From the IMG/VR virus record IMGVR_UViG_3300020470_000057, positions 1 through 39,660 of that record: a stretch of 39,660 nucleotides of DNA. One strand, given 5' to 3'. The stretch comes from a virus. The position numbers and the translations under genes are program-made. Under the pieces are notes generated by a model that did no database searches, was not told where the DNA came from, and was given only the letters and a program-made list of their open reading frames with translations. Positions 24,503 through 39,160 of the stretch are shown in pieces. The first letter of the stretch is position 1. Every line of letters begins with the position of its first letter.

Positions 24503-24517
24503 TTCTTATATAAATAT
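24503..24517 (-). promoter_or_regulatory. Candidate late promoter, lysozyme unit
   Basis: The minus strand reads ATATTTATATAAGAA, one base different from the element at 22766-22780. It lies just downstream of the terminator that follows gp19 and 24 bases before the lysozyme ATG. Confidence 0.5.
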
Positions 24518-25144: not shown

Positions 25145-25159
25145 TTCATATATAAATAG
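25145..25159 (-). promoter_or_regulatory. Candidate late promoter, gp19
   Basis: The minus strand reads CTATTTATATATGAA, 14 of 15 bases identical to the element at 22766-22780. It starts about 10 bases after the T-run of the sheath terminator and leaves a leader of about 60 bases before gp19. Confidence 0.5.
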
Positions 25160-28410: not shown

Positions 28411-29298
28411 CTAATCCTTAACTTCTGGTGTTCTTTTTTGTACATAAGGTGAATTTGATTCAAGATTTTCACTAAATGTAACTCTTCCAGCAGTTAAAGT
28501 TTTTTTAGCATTAAATTGTTGTTTTTTAACAAGGTTTGTAATTACTTCTGGAATTAGATATCCATTCAGTTGAACTGAAAAAGTTGTTCTTACAATTCTA
28601 TCAGTGCCCGCTGAAAGAGAACTTGCGTCTTGTAGTCCTCCTTGTATAGCACATAAAAATCTATAAGAAGTACTATCTCCCCAGTAAGTTTTATTTTGAT
28701 GTAAAAATTCTTCTGTAACAGTATTCATTTGTTCCATAAATGAAGTCCATATTACAAAATCATAGGTAAGATTGACATATTCAGGTGGACCTGTTACTAT
28801 GGATTCCATAACAGGTTTAACTCCTTGCTCAACAGAAAATCTTGTATATTGATTATCTTTAGACCACTTTGAAGACCTCATATGAGTTATATATTCTTTA
28901 TTTAAATCTTGTTTCCAAGAAGGTAGAAGGTCATTAAATTCTAAAGAAGTTCTTCTAAACATAATCATAGGTAATACTAAACTACCATTTTTATCTCTCA
29001 TCACTCCATTCTTTCTAACATTAGCCCATCTTTCCATATTAGCATATACTAAAGGAACTTTAATCATTTCACCATTTTCTTTTACTCTTAATTTCATAAC
29101 TTTATTGATATGATTGACAAGAGATGTATCTAAATCTTTTAATGCTATAGAAAAATTATCACTAAAATTATTACCTGGTACAAATGACTTTTCCCTATTA
29201 CCAACATCATTTCTAATAGTGTCTCCTTTATTAGATACTTGTTCTGCTCTATTAAAATCTAATGGTGGAAATGGATTAGTTATTGGTTTAACAGCCAT
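28411..29298 (-). CDS. gp15: gp15-like tail completion / sheath terminator protein
   Basis: T4 gp15 caps the tail and joins it to the neck. Parallels in order over 295 residues: MIKVPLVYANMERWANVRKN (T4: RVPITYAS), then LPMIMFRRTSLEFND, then YVNLTYDFVIWTSFMEQMNT with EEFL (T4: MIYELSIFTRYEDDMFQIVE), then TTFSVQLNGYLIPE (T4: LTFEVNGWMYPP). The gene also sits in the expected place, after gp13 and gp14 and before gp18. The first 50 residues differ from T4. Its ATG overlaps the stop of the adjacent Cys-rich gene by one base. The call rests on remembered similarity to T4 gp15, so I rate it probable rather than sure. Confidence 0.7.
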   Translation of the reverse strand: MAVKPITNPFPPLDFNRAEQVSNKGDTIRNDVGNREKSFVPGNNFSDNFSIALKDLDTSLVNHINKVMKLRVKENGEMIKVPLVYANMERWANVRKNGVMRDKNGSLVLPMIMFRRTSLEFNDLLPSWKQDLNKEYITHMRSSKWSKDNQYTRFSVEQGVKPVMESIVTGPPEYVNLTYDFVIWTSFMEQMNTVTEEFLHQNKTYWGDSTSYRFLCAIQGGLQDASSLSAGTDRIVRTTFSVQLNGYLIPEVITNLVKKQQFNAKKTLTAGRVTFSENLESNSPYVQKRTPEVKD

Positions 29299-29627
29299 TA
29301 TCTAGTTCTCCCCCTACTGTTATCCGTCAGAGAACAACATCTCTGTACTAAATTCTGGCCAGGATTGTTAAAACCATCTGTATTATATGGATACCTCATA
29401 CCACATGGAACTGTTCCTGGAGGACAAGGTGCTAAAATTTGGTCACCACCTACTGTACCAGGAACTCTCCTCATAGTACCTAATCCAGGCCTTGTACCCA
29501 ATGACCTTGTTGTTCTTCCACCTATAACATGTATATTTTGTCTAGTATTGGTTACAATATTTTTTTTTCTATTGAATTTACTGAGGTCTTTAGCATTTGT
29601 AAAAAATTGTCTTTTACCTTTAGCCAT
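29298..29627 (-). CDS. Cys-rich paralogue 3 (FTNAKDLSKF family)
   Basis: This 109-residue basic protein shares its N-terminus with two genes upstream: QFFTNAKDLSKFNRKKNIVT, then a conserved GGRTTRS. Its C-terminal half has CPPGTVPCGM and a closing CC, again like the paralogues. It is the most divergent copy. The ATG lies inside the end of the 117-residue gene (8-base overlap), and its stop overlaps the gp15 ATG. The layout suggests a small virion protein made in step with neck genes. Function unknown. Confidence 0.65.
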   Translation of the reverse strand: MAKGKRQFFTNAKDLSKFNRKKNIVTNTRQNIHVIGGRTTRSLGTRPGLGTMRRVPGTVGGDQILAPCPPGTVPCGMRYPYNTDGFNNPGQNLVQRCCSLTDNSRGRTR

Positions 29628-29973
29628 TTTTTCTTCTCCTCAAATCCCGTAATTTATCTAATTTATTATTTACTTTTCCTTTTGTAACCTCTGACTTTAC
29701 TGCGTTTTTATCAACTTTTCCAATTGCAATTTCTCTTTTTATATCCACTTCAACAGGTCCGACATTTAAAGTTTTAGATTGATTATTTTCTCCATAAATA
29801 TTTACAGGATTACTACGAATTGAATCAATTTTTTGAGACAACATATTAAATAATCTATTCATATCCAAATTATTATTTGTATTAGTATTAACAACCTGTT
29901 CTTTAACAACTTTCTTTTTTTTGTTGTCTAATGTAAAAAATTTCATTCCTGTTTTTAATGGTTTAACTGACAT
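29620..29973 (-). CDS. Basic Asn/Lys-rich protein, 117 residues, unknown
   Basis: Not part of the Cys-rich family that surrounds it: it has no cysteine. It contains a Lys run with KKKKVVKEQV, an Asn-rich linker (NTNTNNNLDMN), a short helix, a segment of small beta-like repeats (LNVGPVEVDIKREIAIGKVD) and a very basic tail (LRDLRRRKNG). A structural or scaffolding role is possible given its place between gp14 and gp15. It is preceded by GGAGATAATT and separated from the next upstream stop by two bases. Not recognised. Confidence 0.55.
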   Translation of the reverse strand: MSVKPLKTGMKFFTLDNKKKKVVKEQVVNTNTNNNLDMNRLFNMLSQKIDSIRSNPVNIYGENNQSKTLNVGPVEVDIKREIAIGKVDKNAVKSEVTKGKVNNKLDKLRDLRRRKNG

Positions 29974-29975
29974 AA

Positions 29976-30386
29976 TTATCTCCTATCCCTACCTTGTCCA
30001 CCACCACCACCGGTAGTTAGAGGCTGACACACACAATGTTGATAAGTATTCATTCCTAAATAAACCTCACCATCTGATTGGTGACCATACATCATCACAG
30101 CTTGGTGTGTAGGAGGACATTCAGTAACCATACCTCCATTAAATCGACATCCTTGCATTCTTTCAGTTCGAGTACCAAGTTGATTCATTATAAATTCAGG
30201 ACTCGCATGTTGAGCAGCTCTACCCCCACCAGGGTCGTGTTGATTCATTGGATTATTAGGATTATTAGGAATAGTTCTTCTACCGTGAACTGCATTAGAT
30301 ACATTTTTAGTATTTGTTACTCTTCTCGGTCTTCGAGTAAACTTATTTATATCTCTAGCATTGGTTATATATTGTTTTTTCGCCAT
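29976..30386 (-). CDS. Cys-rich paralogue 2 (YITNARDINKF family)
   Basis: 136 residues beginning MAKKQYITNARDINKFTRRP and continuing RRVTNTKNVSNAVHGRRTIP, nearly the same N-terminus as the next gene upstream. The middle is Asn/Pro-rich (NNPNNPMNQ). The C-terminus has MQGCRFNGGMVTECPP and QHCVCQPL, ending in a Gly run and Arg/Asp residues. With four cysteines in CPP and CVC settings it may bind metal or form disulfides in the virion. The N-terminal half is rich in Arg and could bind DNA or a partner. The three copies suggest tandem duplication; a neck, collar or decoration function is only a guess. Confidence 0.65.
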   Translation of the reverse strand: MAKKQYITNARDINKFTRRPRRVTNTKNVSNAVHGRRTIPNNPNNPMNQHDPGGGRAAQHASPEFIMNQLGTRTERMQGCRFNGGMVTECPPTHQAVMMYGHQSDGEVYLGMNTYQHCVCQPLTTGGGGGQGRDRR

Positions 30387-30396
30387 TTTATTACCC

Positions 30397-30759
30397 CTAC
30401 CTACTTCGACCTCTTTGTGACTGAGTACGAGTTACACAAACACATCGCCTCTGTCCAACAGAACCCATCCCACCACCTGCAGGTTGTTCGGAATATGAAA
30501 TTGTAGCCATATATCCAGGAGGACATCCTACGCCATACCAACCATCAGGTCCTTCACACATTTGAATCCTTATATTATCATCACCAGTGCCCGTATTCTG
30601 ACCTCTCATACTTTCTTGTCTGATGGAACGAACTCCAGTTGGATTAGTTCTTCTACCATGAACTGCATTCTGAACATCTTTAGTATTCGTTACTATCCTT
30701 TTCCTTCCTCGAAATTTGTTAATATCTCGAGCATTTGTAAAGTATTGTTTTTTTGACAT
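30397..30759 (-). CDS. Cys-rich paralogue 1 (YFTNARDINKF family)
   Basis: 120 residues beginning MSKKQYFTNARDINKFRGRK and continuing RIVTNTKDVQNAVHGRRTNP, the closest relative of paralogue 2. The C-terminal half has CEGPDGWYGVGCPPGYMATI and RRCVCVTR, so the CPPG and CVC positions are shared. It ends in an Arg/Ser-rich tail (SQRGRSR). A TAGGAGAATATAA site precedes ATG 30759. It is the first copy downstream of the gp14-like gene. Not recognised as a named family. Confidence 0.65.
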   Translation of the reverse strand: MSKKQYFTNARDINKFRGRKRIVTNTKDVQNAVHGRRTNPTGVRSIRQESMRGQNTGTGDDNIRIQMCEGPDGWYGVGCPPGYMATISYSEQPAGGGMGSVGQRRCVCVTRTQSQRGRSR

Positions 30760-32496: not shown

Positions 32497-32511
32497 TTCA
32501 TTTATAAATAT
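32497..32511 (-). promoter_or_regulatory. Candidate late promoter, neck-sheath unit
   Basis: The minus strand reads ATATTTATAAATGAA, one base from the element at 22766-22780 and close to the T4 late box on this strand as well (TATAAATG). It starts directly after the gp23 terminator and lies 29 bases before the gp13 ATG. Confidence 0.55.
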
Positions 32512-32581: not shown

Positions 32582-34255
32582 TTAAACTGTTTCTAGTCCA
32601 TGAACTTGAACGATACCATAGAACTCTGGTCTCACCATTTTCTTAGCATAACGAGTCATTACGCCTTTTCTTGGTGTGAAGTTATTTGGATCGTATACAA
32701 GAGGAGTCATAATCAATGGAACATATGGAGCGTAAACCGCACCTGTTTCAAGGAAGTTTGAACCTCTAAATCCTACTAGGATTTGATTTTCTGTCATATA
32801 AGGATTCTTATAAACAGTCCATCTGTTTTTCAATGAACCGATGGCTTGAACACCCATAGCAAAGTTTGCTTGAGTACCATCTGTAGCCGCTGCATATCCA
32901 GGAATAGATTCAAGAATTGTAGCAACATCAGGAGAACATACTAAGAAATTAGCACCACCTCTTAATGTTAACTGATGAATCTTATTGGATACTCTTTGGA
33001 TTTTAGTTCCAAGAGTCTGGAACCATTCACCTTGAGTATATGCAGATGAACCACTAGAAAGTTCGCTAAACGAAGTTTTCTCAGCATTAAGTCCGTGTCC
33101 AACTTTAGCAGACCAATAATCAACAGTTTGAGCATCTGATATTAACATATCAAGTATTTCTAAATCAATTTCCATTGAAATGTATTCAGATAACATTGAT
33201 GTTAATTCAGCTTCTGCATCAACACTATGATAAGCATTAAGGTCTTGAGCTAGTTCTGGAGTCCAGATTGCTTTTAACTTACGAGTTTTAGCAACTATAG
33301 TTTGAGATTTCATCTCAAGGTTAACTTCAGGTATATTCAAGTCAGCATCAACTGATGATGGTGAACCTGGATATTTACCTGCCTCAAAATCACCTCTGTC
33401 AGAAGCAGTTGGTGTTTTGAAGTATTTAATAGTCCAAGCTGAACCAGTACCATGTGAAAGAGCTGTTTTAGCCATTCCCAAAGCACCATTATTAACAACG
33501 ACTTCTAGGTCAGCACCATTAGATGCAACTTGTGTGAATCGTGGAACTACAGAACCAGAAGTGTTACTTGTAATTGTCCAAGCTCTTACAGATTGAACAT
33601 CAGCGTTAGAGCCAGTAGCTCCACCTGATATTGTGAATGTTGCAAGTTTACCTGCATTTGATGCTGAATATTCAGAATCGAAGTCAAGTATTGATAGTGA
33701 AGCGGAATTAATTCCACCAAAACCACCACCTGCAGCACCTGCAGAAGCATGTGAAGTTAATGAAGCAGTCGGCATCGTATATTCGAACTGACCTGCTCCG
33801 TATAAACCATTGTCAGGGTAACTACCTGATGAACCTAACGGAGAATTAGGACCTACTTTTCCTAACATAGATTCTGTACCATCGGTATTTCTTGCTTGTG
33901 CAAAAGAACTACCATATTTAAAATCTAGATAGAAAACAAGACCTGAAGGAAGGTTCATCGGTTGTACACTAACAAACTCTTGTGCTGATATTTCAGCAAA
34001 TATTCTTCTGACCAATGGAAGGGCAACGCCACTCCATTCTTCAGAATCAGCTGTTGTGCTTGTTTGGGAAGCTTCTTGAATAAGCTGTTTAGCTTGGTTT
34101 TCAAGTAGGATAGACATAGAAGATCTTTCATAATCTTTATCTAAACCTTCAAGAAGACCTGTTTTTTCCCATTTAGAAACTAAAGCTTTACTTTCTTCTT
34201 TAAGTTTCTTATTTGGGTTAGCTCCTAACAAAGCATCTTTAATGTAATTTGACAT
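32582..34255 (-). CDS. gp23: Major capsid protein gp23
   Basis: Main shell subunit of the head. After residues SAQEFVSVQPMNLPSGLVFY comes LDFKYGSS, the hallmark of T4 gp23 (FDICGVQPMN, GQVFALRAVYG). ALPLVRRIFAEI precedes it as in T4. The C-terminal half includes LEMKSQTIVAKTRKLKAIWT with PELAQDL, and VYKNPYMTENQILVGFRGSN, also typical. The N-terminal 61 residues form the expected propeptide: LIQE61/A62 fits the prohead protease rule, T4 gp23 being cut after residue 65. The 557 residues include a Ser/Gly-rich insert at about 160-260. GAGGAGAAATTAAA precedes ATG 34255, a strong site suited to high expression. Confidence 0.93.
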   Translation of the reverse strand: MSNYIKDALLGANPNKKLKEESKALVSKWEKTGLLEGLDKDYERSSMSILLENQAKQLIQEASQTSTTADSEEWSGVALPLVRRIFAEISAQEFVSVQPMNLPSGLVFYLDFKYGSSFAQARNTDGTESMLGKVGPNSPLGSSGSYPDNGLYGAGQFEYTMPTASLTSHASAGAAGGGFGGINSASLSILDFDSEYSASNAGKLATFTISGGATGSNADVQSVRAWTITSNTSGSVVPRFTQVASNGADLEVVVNNGALGMAKTALSHGTGSAWTIKYFKTPTASDRGDFEAGKYPGSPSSVDADLNIPEVNLEMKSQTIVAKTRKLKAIWTPELAQDLNAYHSVDAEAELTSMLSEYISMEIDLEILDMLISDAQTVDYWSAKVGHGLNAEKTSFSELSSGSSAYTQGEWFQTLGTKIQRVSNKIHQLTLRGGANFLVCSPDVATILESIPGYAAATDGTQANFAMGVQAIGSLKNRWTVYKNPYMTENQILVGFRGSNFLETGAVYAPYVPLIMTPLVYDPNNFTPRKGVMTRYAKKMVRPEFYGIVQVHGLETV

Positions 34256-34277: not shown

Positions 34278-35417
34278 TTATTTGATTAAGCCGGCCAATT
34301 TCTTAAATCGGTCAGCAACTTTATTTTCTTCCGAAATGATTTTCTTTGGATTACTTGGTTTTGTTGAACCAGTACTCTTAGAAGAACCACCTACGGACTC
34401 TTTTACTATTTTTTTCTTTGAAACATTCGAATTTTCTTGTAATTGTTCAGCAATTGTAGAATAAACAAGTTTGATTTCTCTAACTGTTTGAGCTCTATCA
34501 AAGTTTTCAACAACTTTCAATTTCTGGTCATTATCAAGAATAAATTCTTTAAACAATTTGTTTGTAAACAAAAGTTTAGCATTTAAGATGTTCACTTCGT
34601 GAAGTTTGTCTTTTAAGAAACCAACAGCTTCTTTGTATTGATTTAATTCATCATATACTTCTTTAAACTCTGCCTTCTTAACGCCAGTTCCATCGATATC
34701 TTCTTCATCTTTATTAGAAGCATAATTTACTTTATTATCTCCAGAACCAATACCAGAAGTTTGAGATTGTTCATCTACTTTTTCTTCTTCGTCTGATTCT
34801 TCGTCTTCTTCTTCTGTGAATAAAGATTCGTCTATTTCATATTCTTGTTCACTATCATCTTCATTAACTGGAGAATCTTCTTCTTCTGATTCATCTTCTG
34901 TGATTTCTTCATCACCATTAGACTCTTCTTCTTCAGAAATTTCATCTTCCAATTCTTTAATAACAGCTTCTAAGTCAAGATTAGACTCATCGACTTCTTC
35001 TTCGTCTGATTCTTCTTCGTCTTCTTCTTCAGACACAACAGGTGCGTATTGCACACCATTAATTTCGATAATGCCTTCATCGACATCATCTTCGTCTTCA
35101 TCATCGCCGAAGTCATCATCACCAGCTGGTACCTCTTCATCACCACCTTCTTCGTCTCCGTGTTCGTCATCGCCGAACTCTTCGTCTTCGTAAGTGCCTT
35201 CTTCAGCAGGTACTTCTTCTTCATCATCATCTGCTTCCTCTTCTTCATCTTCTAAAACAGGCTCACCTTCTTCAAGTTCGTCCTCTTTAAGTTTAGCAGA
35301 TAACATTGACTTCAACTGAGGTGTGAACGCTTCTTCTAATGCTATTTTTGCATTTTCTAAAGCTGTCTCACGAACTGCTTTTGCATCCGCGATTGCTTCT
35401 TTTAAAATATCACCCAT
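34278..35417 (-). CDS. gp22: Prohead core scaffold protein gp22
   Basis: Assembly core protein removed by proteolysis as the head matures. Residues 1-45 are helical with several L/I-x-E followed by A or G sites (ILKEA, LEEAF, LEEGE), suited to protease digestion. Residues 48-230 are extremely acidic, long runs of Glu and Asp. The C-terminal 140 residues are helical: ELNQYKEAVGFLKDKLHEVN, then ILNAKLLFTNKLFKEFIL, then KLKVVENFDRAQTVREIKLV, which matches the core of T4-like gp22 proteins. A Lys/Ser-rich tail follows. ATG 35417 is behind GAGGAGAAAAGTATC, and gp23 starts 23 bases after the stop. Confidence 0.85.
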   Translation of the reverse strand: MGDILKEAIADAKAVRETALENAKIALEEAFTPQLKSMLSAKLKEDELEEGEPVLEDEEEEADDDEEEVPAEEGTYEDEEFGDDEHGDEEGGDEEVPAGDDDFGDDEDEDDVDEGIIEINGVQYAPVVSEEEDEEESDEEEVDESNLDLEAVIKELEDEISEEEESNGDEEITEDESEEEDSPVNEDDSEQEYEIDESLFTEEEDEESDEEEKVDEQSQTSGIGSGDNKVNYASNKDEEDIDGTGVKKAEFKEVYDELNQYKEAVGFLKDKLHEVNILNAKLLFTNKLFKEFILDNDQKLKVVENFDRAQTVREIKLVYSTIAEQLQENSNVSKKKIVKESVGGSSKSTGSTKPSNPKKIISEENKVADRFKKLAGLIK

Positions 35418-35524
35418 GATACTTTTCTCCTCAATTATGTTTTATTGGAATATAGTTATTAGGAACTATAATATAGTTATTCGGGTATTTAGACACCGTA
35501 TATAATCGACAGTGTATTATAGTT

Positions 35525-35539
35525 TGTGTATATAAATAT
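35525..35539 (-). promoter_or_regulatory. Candidate late promoter, gp22-gp23 unit
   Basis: The minus strand reads ATATTTATATACACA, sharing the ATATTTATATA core of the other late elements but not the TGAA end. It lies in the 148-base gap between bS21 and gp22, leaving a leader of about 105 bases. Apart from this AT-rich element I see nothing else in the gap. Confidence 0.45.
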
Positions 35540-35565: not shown

Positions 35566-35829
35566 TTAATAACTTTTATTTTCTTTTTGATTTTTATATT
35601 TATTTCTTAATATGGCGAGATTTTTTCTTTCTCTTTTTAATTTAGATGGTTTTTCATAATAAGATTTTCTTTTTACATCTAAAAATAAATTACTTTCTTT
35701 TATTTTTTTCTTCAGTCTTTTTAATGCAAATTCTACATTATTATTAACAACCGTTACTGACAACCCAGGAGGGTCTTGTATTCTTTTTCTTTTTTTATGA
35801 AACCTTTTTTTACCTTTATTATAAGCCAT
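35566..35829 (-). CDS. rpsU: Ribosomal protein bS21 (phage-encoded)
   Basis: Homologue of the small-subunit protein that sits at the mRNA exit/anti-Shine-Dalgarno region of the 30S subunit. From about residue 24 the bS21 pattern is clear: VTVVNNNVEFALKRLKKKIK, then ESNLFLDVKRKSYYEKPSKL, then a basic helix KRERKNLAILRNKYKN. The EKP motif is at 59-61. A basic 22-residue N-terminal extension (KGKKRFHKKRKR) is not usual in bacterial bS21. Its 87 residues exceed the normal 60-75. AGGGGG precedes ATG 35829. It sits 12 bases after the RG-rich protein gene and before the gp22 promoter. It may swap into host ribosomes late in infection and favour phage mRNAs; that is inference. Confidence 0.85.
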   Translation of the reverse strand: MAYNKGKKRFHKKRKRIQDPPGLSVTVVNNNVEFALKRLKKKIKESNLFLDVKRKSYYEKPSKLKRERKNLAILRNKYKNQKENKSY

Positions 35830-35840
35830 TCAGCCCCCTA

Positions 35841-37712
35841 CTAATTTTTAGTTAATTCTTCTTTATGTTTTAGATATTCTTTTGCTAAATATCTTTCTCT
35901 TCCGTATGCCGCTTTTGACCATTTTTTAACAATTGACTTTGGCATTTGTTCATAGTCTTCAGCTAAATTATTATTTACAAACCAAGCTACTCTTCGAGCA
36001 TCAGCATGTGGTATTTTTTTGTATCTATTCTCTTCAAGAGTTTTCATCCAAACTTTAATTTCTTTTACAGTTGACCTTCTTGGTTTTACTGTTTCACTTA
36101 TGATATTGTTTCTTATCATAAGTGATTCATCTTTTTTACTTTTTTTACCTTTTTTACCTTTAGAACCTTTAGCTCTCCCCCTTCCTTTACCTCTTCCTTT
36201 TCCTTTAGCACCTCTACCTCTTCCTCTACCTCTTCCTTTACCAGAAGATTTACCTGAACCCCATCCACCTTTAGCAGATGCAGTTCCTCCTTTTGCAACA
36301 GTTTTAGGTACATCAATAGTTGCCCTTTTACCAAACGATTCTTCGTCTTTTTCTCTAGACTTTTGAAGGTCTATATCTTTAGCTGTAACCGTATCAGCAT
36401 CTTGTGTTACTTTTGATAGAGCTGAAGATTCAGCAGATTGTGCTGATGTATGTTTATCAGTATACTCTGCTTTTTTATCACTCCAATCAGACCATTCAGG
36501 ATTATCTATATTAGGATTAGTTGTATCTCCAGTCGACCATTGGTCTCTTCCTGGTTGACCTTGAGCAGTTGATAAATCTGAAGCACTACCATAACCATAA
36601 TTAGTTGCATAACTTGTCTGTTGTGTAGTTGGATTTGTAGTTGCTTTTGCTGATGTAAATTGGTCTCTACCAGATACAGTTTGAGCGGTTGAGTAATCCG
36701 AATCAGTTCCTTGTCCATATTGAGTTGCATATGAAGTTGATGTTGGATTAGTTGTTTTTTTGGGGTCTGCTAATGAACCAACTTTTGTTTTTCTATCTGG
36801 ACTTACACCACCACCTTTTTTTATTAAATCTGAAAGTTCTTGGTAACCACCCAAACCTACTATTGTTCCTTGACCAAATGTTTTTACAGCTTTACCATAA
36901 TTTACAGTAGTAGGTGCAGATTTAGATATTTGTTGACCGGGTTGTAATGTTTTTTGAGCTTTAGCATAATCTTGTGCAGAACCAACACCATATTTAGTTT
37001 TTCCTCCTTTTCCACCAGTAACAACTGACCACCCCAAAGCAGGTATCGCTGCTTTAGGACTTGGGAGATTAACTGTTTGCTTCGAAGTTGGATGTGTCCA
37101 AGATTGAGCAGTTTGTGTTCCATATTCCCAACCAAATTTTGGTTGAGTTTGACCTTTACTTAATGTTGTTGTTTGAGATGAATAAGGGTGAATCCATTTT
37201 GATGAATCAGTTGTAGTTGTAGCCTGTCTATATTGCCAACCTTTAGCAGGTTGAGTTTCACCTTGACCTAATGTTGTTGTTTGAGATGAATATGGGTGAA
37301 TCCATTTTGTTGTATCAGGAACATCTTGTGTTGTCGCCTGTCTATACGACCAAGCTTTATCAGGTTGAGTTTCACCTTGACCTAATGTTACTACATCACC
37401 AGTAATTGGATTTTTCCATCTCGTTGTATCAGGTATTTCAGATGCAGGTTCATCAGCTGTATGTCTATCAAGGGTATCTTTAGCAGTTTTTGTATCTTTT
37501 TGAGCAACTTCCCATCCTGATAAAGATTGTTGATGTTTAGTTTTTGCAATATGTAAAGCGTGTTCCGCATCTGTTGTTGCTCTACTTGCAGGAGGTTTAC
37601 CCTTTGGATTCTTTTTAGCAACTCTCGTAACTGCGCTAGTTCCGGTAGCTTCTATTAAAAATTTTCTTATTACTTTTCTTAAGGTAGACTCTTTTATAAA
37701 CATCCTTTTCAT
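35841..37712 (-). CDS. Repetitive RG/K-rich protein with prohead-protease-like leader; candidate internal head protein
   Basis: The start is ATG 37712 behind GGAGATGAGAAT; an upstream ATG at 37796 overlaps the previous gene. Of 623 residues, 1-21 form a basic leader ending FLIE21/A22, a match to the T4 capsid-targeting and protease-cut rule. Residues 99-230 hold four repeats of 36-38 residues of the form W-x-HP then about 11 residues, TLGQGETQP and GWQYRQAT. Residues 328-391 hold two 40-residue repeats (YATQYGQGTDSDYSTAQ, GRDQ). Residues 490-527 are an RG/KG tract that should bind nucleic acid or host targets. A second possible cut is IISE540/T541, before a folded C-terminal domain (residues 545-620, helical, basic). 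It resembles a DNA-binding protein packed in the head and ejected with DNA; unproven. Confidence 0.6.
   Translation of the reverse strand: MKRMFIKESTLRKVIRKFLIEATGTSAVTRVAKKNPKGKPPASRATTDAEHALHIAKTKHQQSLSGWEVAQKDTKTAKDTLDRHTADEPASEIPDTTRWKNPITGDVVTLGQGETQPDKAWSYRQATTQDVPDTTKWIHPYSSQTTTLGQGETQPAKGWQYRQATTTTDSSKWIHPYSSQTTTLSKGQTQPKFGWEYGTQTAQSWTHPTSKQTVNLPSPKAAIPALGWSVVTGGKGGKTKYGVGSAQDYAKAQKTLQPGQQISKSAPTTVNYGKAVKTFGQGTIVGLGGYQELSDLIKKGGGVSPDRKTKVGSLADPKKTTNPTSTSYATQYGQGTDSDYSTAQTVSGRDQFTSAKATTNPTTQQTSYATNYGYGSASDLSTAQGQPGRDQWSTGDTTNPNIDNPEWSDWSDKKAEYTDKHTSAQSAESSALSKVTQDADTVTAKDIDLQKSREKDEESFGKRATIDVPKTVAKGGTASAKGGWGSGKSSGKGRGRGRGRGAKGKGRGKGRGRAKGSKGKKGKKSKKDESLMIRNNIISETVKPRRSTVKEIKVWMKTLEENRYKKIPHADARRVAWFVNNNLAEDYEQMPKSIVKKWSKAAYGRERYLAKEYLKHKEELTKN
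36132..36245 (-). repeat. RG/KG low-complexity coding tract
   Basis: This stretch codes residues 490-527 of the RG-rich protein and consists of alternating Gly with Arg or Lys, in DNA a near-repeat of GGAAGAGG and GGTAAAGG type. Slippage could change its length between relatives. Confidence 0.75.
36540..36731 (-). repeat. Two 40-residue coding repeats (YATQYGQG, then AQ and GRDQ)
   Basis: Residues 328-351 and 368-391 of the RG-rich protein share YAT-x-YG-x-G, D, STAQ and GRDQ at the same spacing. A weaker relative (YGVGSAQDYAKAQ) occurs near residue 241. Confidence 0.7.
37023..37418 (-). repeat. Tandem coding repeats, about 108-114 bases each
   Basis: Four units start at Trp residues 99, 137, 173 and 205 of the RG-rich protein. 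The first to second period is 114 bases and the second to third 108. Units two and three share WIHPYSSQTTTL exactly; the fourth is the most diverged. Confidence 0.75.
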
Positions 37713-37731: not shown

Positions 37732-38151
37732 TTATATAAATTTATTAAAAGAACTGATAGGTTTAAACTGATTTGTATCATTTTTAAAATTATCAATTTC
37801 TTTATCGGTCATTTTAACTACATCGTCATACACAATTTCGGTATCACGATAAGCTTCTCCATGTGGAGTTATTGCATCTTTAATTTTCTTTTCATATTCT
37901 TCTATAGCTTTATACAATAAATCCATTTTTGGTGTTATTTTTTTGTTGTGTGTAGTTATTTCTTCTCTCCAATCTAATTGGTATTGTAATAACTTTTTCA
38001 AATCTCCAAATTCAGGATGAAAAGGACCTGAAAATAACATATCAATTCCTTGACCCTTTGCACCAGAGTGTCCTTCAACACCACCAGAATCTTGTTCCAA
38101 TAAATTTACTAATTCTTCTAGTAAATTACTCTTCACTTGACTCTTCTTCAT
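37732..38151 (-). CDS. Small protein overlapping the actin-like gene, 139 residues
   Basis: ATG 38151 lies 26 bases inside the end of the actin-like gene and is preceded by GAGG, so the two are translationally coupled. The N-terminus is amphipathic (SNLLEELVNLLEQ) followed by a Gly-rich stretch (SGGVEGHSGAKGQG). The rest has helices (KKLLQYQLDWREEITTHNKK, YKAIEEYEKKIKDA) and an acidic middle. Gene overlap with an actin-like ATPase resembles plasmid and phage segregation pairs, where the second gene is a DNA-binding adaptor. No DNA-binding fold is recognisable, so adaptor is only one idea. It could also belong to the head. Confidence 0.6.
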   Translation of the reverse strand: MKKSQVKSNLLEELVNLLEQDSGGVEGHSGAKGQGIDMLFSGPFHPEFGDLKKLLQYQLDWREEITTHNKKITPKMDLLYKAIEEYEKKIKDAITPHGEAYRDTEIVYDDVVKMTDKEIDNFKNDTNQFKPISSFNKFI

Positions 38152-39160
38152 CTTCCTCTATGAGTTGTGCTTCACTTAAACAACCTCTTGCGACTGCTGT
38201 GTGAGCATCTTCAATTAATTTTATTTCACTAACTGGTATTGGGAAATTTTCTCCATCAAATTGTTCTTGGAATACATCCATAAATCCTGTAACTAATGAT
38301 GTTCCACCACCAATTACAATTGGAACTGCATCTGGAAAACTCGGCATATTATCTTTAGCTTCAAATTGAACTTTGAGGTTTGTTAAAAGATAATTAACCA
38401 ATGCACCATAGTAAGAACGAATAGCATGTAATACATTTGCCTCGTCACTACCTTCACCATAAATATCAGCTTCAACACCCTTACTTAAATTTAAGTTGTT
38501 TGAAGATTCTTTTGCATTTTGAACTTTAGCCGGTGACAATCCAGTATCAGCAGCTACATTTTGGTCAATCCAATCACCACCTCTTGATACTGAAAATGAT
38601 AATGCAGTCATACCTTGATACATTACTGCTATATTACACATACCAGCTCCCATAGAAATTGCTATACCAGTTAAGTCATTATCAACTAAACCTTCATATC
38701 CAATAGCAACTGCCTCTTCAATTACTTTAGTTTTATATCCATATCCATCTATAATAGTTTTTAACACATCTTCGTGATAAGAAACTTCTCTTTGTTGGTC
38801 AATAGGTTTTGAAGGTACACAATAAACACACACCTCTTTACCTTTAGCCTTACCTAACAATTCACCAACAATTGCATTTAATACAGGTAGTGCATCTTTT
38901 TCTTCTGGATTTAATAATCCACTTTTCATTGGTCTTTTTAATTCTGTTTGAGAAAATATCTGTGCGTAATTAAAAGCGTGTTGTCCAACGATATGAACTT
39001 TTCCACCCTTTTCCACGAATGGTATCTTCTGTCTTTTTAACATTCGTTTAACTTGATTTACATCACCATCTACTGTTAAGAAAGCATTTCTTTGTTTTTT
39101 AATACTATCTTCTGTAGCTGTGATATAAAAACTTGTTCCACAATCTAATCCTTTTGCCAT
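38126..39160 (-). CDS. Actin-like ATPase (ASKHA fold; MreB/ParM/Alp type)
   Basis: A filament-forming or chaperone-like ATPase is predicted. The ASKHA motifs are in order: phosphate-1 GLDCGTSFYITA (residues 4-15), connect-1 region VIEEAVAIGYEG (146-157), phosphate-2 IAISMGAGMCNIAVMYQG (166-183), the MreB/Hsp70-like RGGDWIDQNVA (193-203), adenosine motif IVIGGGTSLVTGF (281-293) and the closing AHTAVARGC (319-327). At 344 residues it is the size of MreB or ParM, not of Hsp70. The last 12 residues are strongly acidic. The start at 39160 is behind AGAGGTAAATT. Its neighbours are candidate internal head proteins, and T4 has no such gene. Polymerisation cannot be judged from sequence. Confidence 0.8.
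   Translation of the reverse strand: MAKGLDCGTSFYITATEDSIKKQRNAFLTVDGDVNQVKRMLKRQKIPFVEKGGKVHIVGQHAFNYAQIFSQTELKRPMKSGLLNPEEKDALPVLNAIVGELLGKAKGKEVCVYCVPSKPIDQQREVSYHEDVLKTIIDGYGYKTKVIEEAVAIGYEGLVDNDLTGIAISMGAGMCNIAVMYQGMTALSFSVSRGGDWIDQNVAADTGLSPAKVQNAKESSNNLNLSKGVEADIYGEGSDEANVLHAIRSYYGALVNYLLTNLKVQFEAKDNMPSFPDAVPIVIGGGTSLVTGFMDVFQEQFDGENFPIPVSEIKLIEDAHTAVARGCLSEAQLIEEDEEESSEE

Follow-up and report, generated by a model that had tools for sequence, protein, structure and literature searches.

The virus DNA analysed here, from a sea-water phage and termed the window (39,660 nucleotides; positions 1 to 39,660 of IMG/VR record IMGVR_UViG_3300020470_000057), encodes a phage ribosomal protein bS21 with a conserved basic, probably disordered N-terminal extension shared by 30 T4-like phage bS21s. 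Its gene lies directly ahead of the scaffold and capsid genes gp22 and gp23, which are preceded by a two-hairpin leader showing covariation across related phages. Phage bS21 genes in structural blocks are already known; the conservation of the extension is among the new findings. No other ribosomal protein is carried by phages as often as bS21. It is rather likely that the window gene provides a functional late bS21 which takes the place of host bS21 on the 30S subunit or adds to it, with the basic tail favouring late mRNAs, especially the capsid mRNA.

The bS21 gene, its basic extension and its neighbours

The bS21 gene and the features surrounding it are as follows.

38126..39160, minus: volactin-like actin, syntenic upstream of bS21 (PF25216, 2e-73; about 68-81% identical in relatives)
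35841..37712, minus: 623-aa protein with a T4-like capsid-targeting N-terminus (last ~75 aa, beside bS21, conserved among clade members)
35830..35841, minus: bS21 ribosome-binding site, AGTAGGGGGCTGA-ATG (mostly AAGAGGTTAAT-ATG here in relatives)
35566..35829, minus: phage bS21 gene, 87 aa (PF01165 and TIGR00030 matches; AF2 core helices)
35764..35829, minus: 22-codon basic N-terminal extension, net charge +8 (conserved in 30 phage bS21s; dN/dS; pLDDT)
34278..35417, minus: gp22-like acidic scaffold protein, preceding gp23 (N-terminus conserved in relatives)
32582..34255, minus: gp23 major capsid protein (PF07068, 9e-80)

The open reading frame runs from ATG to TAA at exactly 35566-35829 on the minus strand and encodes an 87-aa protein (MAYNKGKKRFHKKRKRIQDPPGLSVTVVNNNVEFALKRLKKKIKESNLFLDVKRKSYYEKPSKLKRERKNLAILRNKYKNQKENKSY). 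The initial annotation had called it a phage bS21, which is confirmed by matches to the profiles Ribosomal_S21 (PF01165; 7e-12, 45.3 bits against a cut-off of 27) and TIGR00030 (NCBIfam; 3e-11, 43 against 28.95), both passing the curated cut-offs, and to phrog_21469 (7e-10), while the related PDB entries are bS21 from many bacteria and mitochondria. The AlphaFold (AF2) model, built with an input alignment of 42 window and locus sequences, contains three helical core stretches with a block-mean pLDDT of about 87-96, and a Foldseek search with this model gives mitochondrial bS21 as the top PDB matches at a modest E value (0.07; probability 0.99). The predicted structure is bS21-like, and the Y-x-KPS motif and the basic core are conserved. 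The core clearly differs from the host-type bS21 sequences examined, and it is under purifying selection (pooled dN/dS about 0.32, a rough value because synonymous sites are near saturation).

As aligned with canonical bS21 starts, the window protein has 22 extra residues (MAYNKGKKRFHKKRKRIQDPPG), comprising nine K/R, one H and one D with a net charge of +8, in agreement with the basic extension previously noted. The extended start is backed by an AGGGGG site 5 nt upstream and by the conserved Shine-Dalgarno (SD) sequence of relatives directly before it. In the clade (30 loci plus the window), 11-21 residues, mostly K/R with a net charge of +2 to +9, stand ahead of a conserved GL, MKKRKNFRKKRPKD being a typical example. 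The 30 T4-like phage bS21s with the extension are monophyletic (support 98/88) in a tree based on a short alignment which includes the extension itself. The extension is unstructured in the AlphaFold model (pLDDT 58-62) and thus probably disordered, and its pooled dN/dS is about 0.49, likewise a rough figure near synonymous saturation. It is absent from the bS21s of Pelagibacterales (SAR11), Nitrospirales and Desulfuromonadales examined and from that of phage HTVC008M. Among other phages with bS21 beside gp22, a few lineages carry different basic extensions, but most have none; the extension is therefore, as far as these sequences go, a feature of the clade and not a general one.

All genes around bS21 are on the same strand, with the 623-aa protein, a 139-aa gene and the volactin-like actin upstream, and the neck and tail genes downstream beyond gp22 and gp23. 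The location between an internal head-type protein and the gp22-gp23 unit, as initially annotated, is borne out by the PF07068 match of gp23 and by the N-terminus of the 623-aa protein (MKRMFIKESTLRKVIRKFLIE|A), which resembles the T4 capsid-targeting sequence (CTS). The listed TTG start of the latter at 37796 is probably wrong, and the ATG at 37712 is the better candidate, as it has an SD (TTTGGAG) and yields the T4-like capsid-targeting N-terminus. Conservation of this protein in relatives is limited to the last ~75 aa, and its middle consists of repeats and a GRGRG/KGKG-rich stretch. Elsewhere on the minus strand (29298-30759), three adjacent small ORFs of 109, 136 and 120 aa have similar starts (MAKGKRQFFTNA, MAKKQYITNARD and MSKKQYFTNARD) and may be tandem paralogues.

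The order actin, C-terminal domain of the 623-aa protein, bS21, gp22 and gp23 is found in ~34 IMG/VR loci as far as the contigs reach, the longest of which are 114 and 169 kb. Of 63 distinct gp22 loci outside the clade, 49 have bS21 no more than 2.5 kb upstream of gp22, in most cases immediately ahead of the leader. Microcystis phage Mel-JY01 and the Flavobacterium phages immuto are the isolates closest to the window in gp23 (52-54% identical).

The leader of the gp22-gp23 mRNA

The interval between bS21 and gp22, with a length of about 140 nt in the majority of clade members, contains the following elements; the last row also lists motif copies elsewhere in the window.

35529..35538, minus: late-promoter-like motif TATTTATATA just after bS21 (enriched against shuffles)
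35418..35525, minus: structured leader of the gp22-gp23 mRNA, ~100 nt (conserved intergenic region; covariation; model hits)
35493..35515, minus: leader hairpin 1, ACACTGT...ACGGTGT, then CTAAATA (7 pairs; 98% of alignment cells paired, 28 phages)
35451..35470, minus: leader hairpin 2, TATAGTT-CCTAAT-AACTATA, loop consensus CCNAAU (100% of cells paired; double changes in 4 of 6 core pairs)
35445..35450, minus: conserved UUCC directly 3' of hairpin 2, which could pair with the gp22 SD (UCC count)
35427-35432, minus: gp22 SD, GAGGAG
24507-24516, 25149-25158, 32501-32510 and 35529-35538, minus: TATTTATAWA motifs at the heads of late units

The clade shares the order TATTTATATA, ACACCGT/ACGGTGT hairpin, CTAAATA, TAAGTTT-CCTAAT-AAACTTA hairpin, UUCC and gp22 SD. 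The motif TATTTATATA occurs six times in the window, always on the minus strand, against a mean of 1.8 in shuffles, and 24 times on the plus strand against three on the minus strand of a related record (G001), where 18 of the 24 are intergenic. Three of the four TATTTATAWA motifs listed above follow intrinsic-terminator-like hairpins. The motif is usually placed 25-60 nt ahead of late genes, and in the case of gp22 the distance is about 121-123 nt. Since it is enriched intergenically on the coding strand, it is likely to be the late promoter of this phage group, and the hairpins after it are read as a 5' leader. bS21 is the last gene ahead of this late-promoter-like motif, and further motifs precede the bS21 block.

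Evidence for the leader is comparative, as the window leader folded by itself does no better than shuffles (z -0.76). In an alignment of 28 leaders built without reference to structure, 99.0% of cells are paired against 89.5% after shuffling, and double changes occur in 6 of 14 pairs, with 32 compensatory cells against 6.4 in shuffles. The corresponding figures for an 89-row alignment, which was fitted to the structure by the covariance model and includes a few promoter-only matches, are 14 of 14 pairs and 249 cells against 71. Hairpin 2, defined as a perfect 7-bp stem with a loop ending in AAT, is present in 87 of 99 distinct leaders, against 1.7 expected from mononucleotide shuffles. A role at the DNA level, as a palindrome, is less likely than one in RNA, because the stem of hairpin 1 is kept across very different loop lengths. 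An alternative upstream pairing of hairpin 2 (AACTATA occurs twice in the window) was dropped, as it is not kept in several relatives.

The covariance model finds one strong leader copy per related genome record and a copy ahead of gp22 at nearly every gp22 locus searched. Over ~100 related phage loci, the majority have the leader before gp22, and bS21 is its usual upstream neighbour. In two loci (L002 and L109) the gap between bS21 and gp22 is about 500 nt longer, and the leader stays beside gp22. A weaker match (E 3e-4) occurs in a 160-kb Flavobacterium phage genome which has no bS21, so the leader is independent of bS21; judged by this distribution, it belongs to gp22 and its tie to bS21 is positional only. 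Searched at the gathering score, Rfam gives no leader match in the window and 20 related loci, and a permissive search returns only T-box (14 bits against 93). No earlier description of the leader was found in the literature searched, largely outside subscription journals. The leader appears to be a widespread, undescribed cis-element, and its mRNA is probably among the most expressed phage mRNAs in water.

The median distance from hairpin 2 to the start codon is 31 nt, and 73 of 81 leaders carry a UCC no more than 14 nt after this hairpin, against 6.1 expected. By pairing with the GGA of the SD, this UCC could mask the gp22 initiation site, so that the ribosome or a phage factor would be needed to open it. 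The leaders of four loci (L244, L247, L295 and L303) lack the UCC after hairpin 2; here CUCU precedes an SD of the form AGAG or AAGGG, which would fit a change on both sides of the masking pair. Structured translational leaders of T4, such as that of gene e (PMC3014915), similarly show that a phage mRNA initiation region can be masked by structure; the passages searched in the T4 review contain no gp22/gp23 leader.

Proposed role of the phage bS21

The gene is best read as serving to modify ribosomes late in infection, a view supported indirectly by the intact core, the late-promoter-driven block and published incorporation of a phage bS21 into ribosomes. The protein would be expressed late, from the last gene of a transcription unit ending just before the gp22-gp23 late promoter, and would replace or supplement host bS21 on 30S subunits. 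With its ribosome-binding fold kept, the core would be positioned near the anti-SD helix and the mRNA exit, from where the disordered basic tail may extend over the platform and contact either rRNA or the mRNA upstream. Such contacts would favour initiation on late mRNAs that are abundant, the capsid mRNA above all.

Published systems agree with parts of this proposal. Chen 2022 (ISME Commun, PMC9723584) described phage bS21 genes in structural blocks (phage clades a-e), reported their transcription in late replication together with structural genes, and proposed virion packaging. As in the window, bS21 of those phages lies within the terminase/prohead/capsid block and is likely expressed late; however, it is on the strand opposite to the structural genes, whereas the window and related loci have it on the same strand. 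The bS21 of HTVC008M, a Pelagibacter phage and marine T4-like myovirus (Mizuno et al. 2019, PMC6375957), enters E. coli 70S ribosomes, but it is a 67-aa protein without extension, encoded beside cobS, Hsp20 and clamp genes outside the capsid block. E. coli ribosomes with this bS21 are nearly inactive in vitro (about 5%; PMC6375957), and incorporation therefore need not aid translation. Microcystis phage Mel-JY01 (PP395634; gp23 54% identical) also has bS21 a few genes before gp22-gp23 and leader hairpins before gp22, visible by eye although not reached by the covariance model; it differs in that its bS21 lacks the basic extension and two further genes separate it from gp22. In Flavobacterium, the mRNAs translated differ between ribosomes that contain bS21 and those that lack it (PMC9976891), so that, as proposed here, the state of bS21 alters which mRNAs are initiated.

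A less probable explanation, yet one carrying some weight, is that the phage merely adds bS21 once host synthesis has been shut down, so that ribosomes stay active during the late burst, with the tail a minor lineage feature. bS21 is loosely bound, exchangeable and needed for initiation (cited in PMC6375957), the SDs of this phage are ordinary and leave no mRNA class selectable by SD, and most phages with bS21 beside gp22 do without the extension. Selection on the extension in one clade, together with a core clearly unlike host-type bS21, argues against such simple supply. A further model, which is unlikely, makes bS21, leader and gp22-gp23 a single late capsid-expression cassette: the phage bS21, tailed in this clade, would change the mRNA-exit platform of the ribosome, the leader would both mask the SD and either dock on such ribosomes or be opened by them, and capsid protein would be made by phage-modified ribosomes.

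It is quite improbable that bS21 serves as an internal protein of the head, entering the cell together with the DNA and acting at the start of infection. Packaging had been raised in the initial annotation and is proposed in print (PMC9723584), the gene adjoins both a CTS-bearing internal-head-type gene and gp22-gp23, and the basic tail could bind DNA; yet what is conserved in the gene is a ribosomal protein, it has no CTS, and [LI]xE sites are present in 13 of 31 sequences at scattered places, none conserved, so that no capsid-targeting or protease site was retained as a candidate and the suggestion finds no support. Binding of bS21 to the gp22 leader RNA away from the ribosome, adjusting scaffold and capsid output, is highly improbable too: the basic tail, the adjoining of gene and leader in most loci, and the occurrence of bS21 in a non-ribosomal RNP, the OLE complex (PMC12054373), would suit it, but the leader persists in phages without bS21 and is set apart from the gene by the additional sequence in L002 and L109. 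The clade with the conserved basic tail offers a clean test case of phage bS21 function by tail deletion, and the structured capsid-mRNA leader beside bS21 a defined mRNA on which its effect can be measured.

Shine-Dalgarno sites and host type

Among 32 window genes, 25 are preceded by an SD core; in the corresponding region of Flavobacterium phage immuto this applies to 0 of 20, a contrast that speaks against a Bacteroidota host. In Bacteroidota, Tyr54 of F. johnsoniae bS21 stacks on the anti-SD, and an aromatic residue is present at this position in all phages of Chen 2022, for which Bacteroidota hosts are predicted (PMC9723584). The aligned residue of the window bS21 is leucine, and no aromatic residue occurs among the bS21s of gp22 loci where the position could be placed. 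Anti-SD sequestration of the Bacteroidota type was accordingly rejected for this SD-rich phage, which is thus probably not of the Bacteroidota type described by Chen and probably infects an SD-using host. The bS21 tree gave no resolution for host assignment. One contig in a Pelagibacter sp. MED605 MAG (L017; L206) belongs to a phage of the same group and weakly hints at a SAR11 host, or may be a binning artefact, because the MAG holds a second phage-like contig.

The strong GAGGAG sites of the neighbouring genes, considered relevant to bS21 in the initial annotation, are indeed present before gp22 and gp23, but by the standard of this phage they are of ordinary strength and their relevance is unsupported; the gp22-gp23 mRNA stands out by its structured leader and not by its SD. 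Anti-SD pairing energies in the window are -8.3 kcal/mol for gp22 and gp23 and -9.8 kcal/mol for bS21, and in two related records the SD strengths of all three rank near the median. Stronger SDs in late genes than in early ones, a comparison suggested at the same time, were rejected on these ranks and on median energies of -7.3 kcal/mol for 19 structural genes against -7.6 for six replication-side genes. Autoregulation as in Flavobacteriales rpsU (McNutt et al. 2023, PMC9976891) involves an SD of exceptional strength in a genome that otherwise lacks SDs, whereas here most genes have SDs and bS21 is mid-rank in the two related genomes; this candidate was rejected. A special GAGGT-class ribosome-binding site on bS21 and actin was likewise rejected as a regulatory class, being conserved gene-specifically but not stronger, and shared by unrelated genes. 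The type of ribosome-binding site is conserved gene by gene in L110, L112 and other clade loci, with AAGAGGTTAAT-ATG at bS21 and actin and GGAG at gp22, gp23 and the neck genes.
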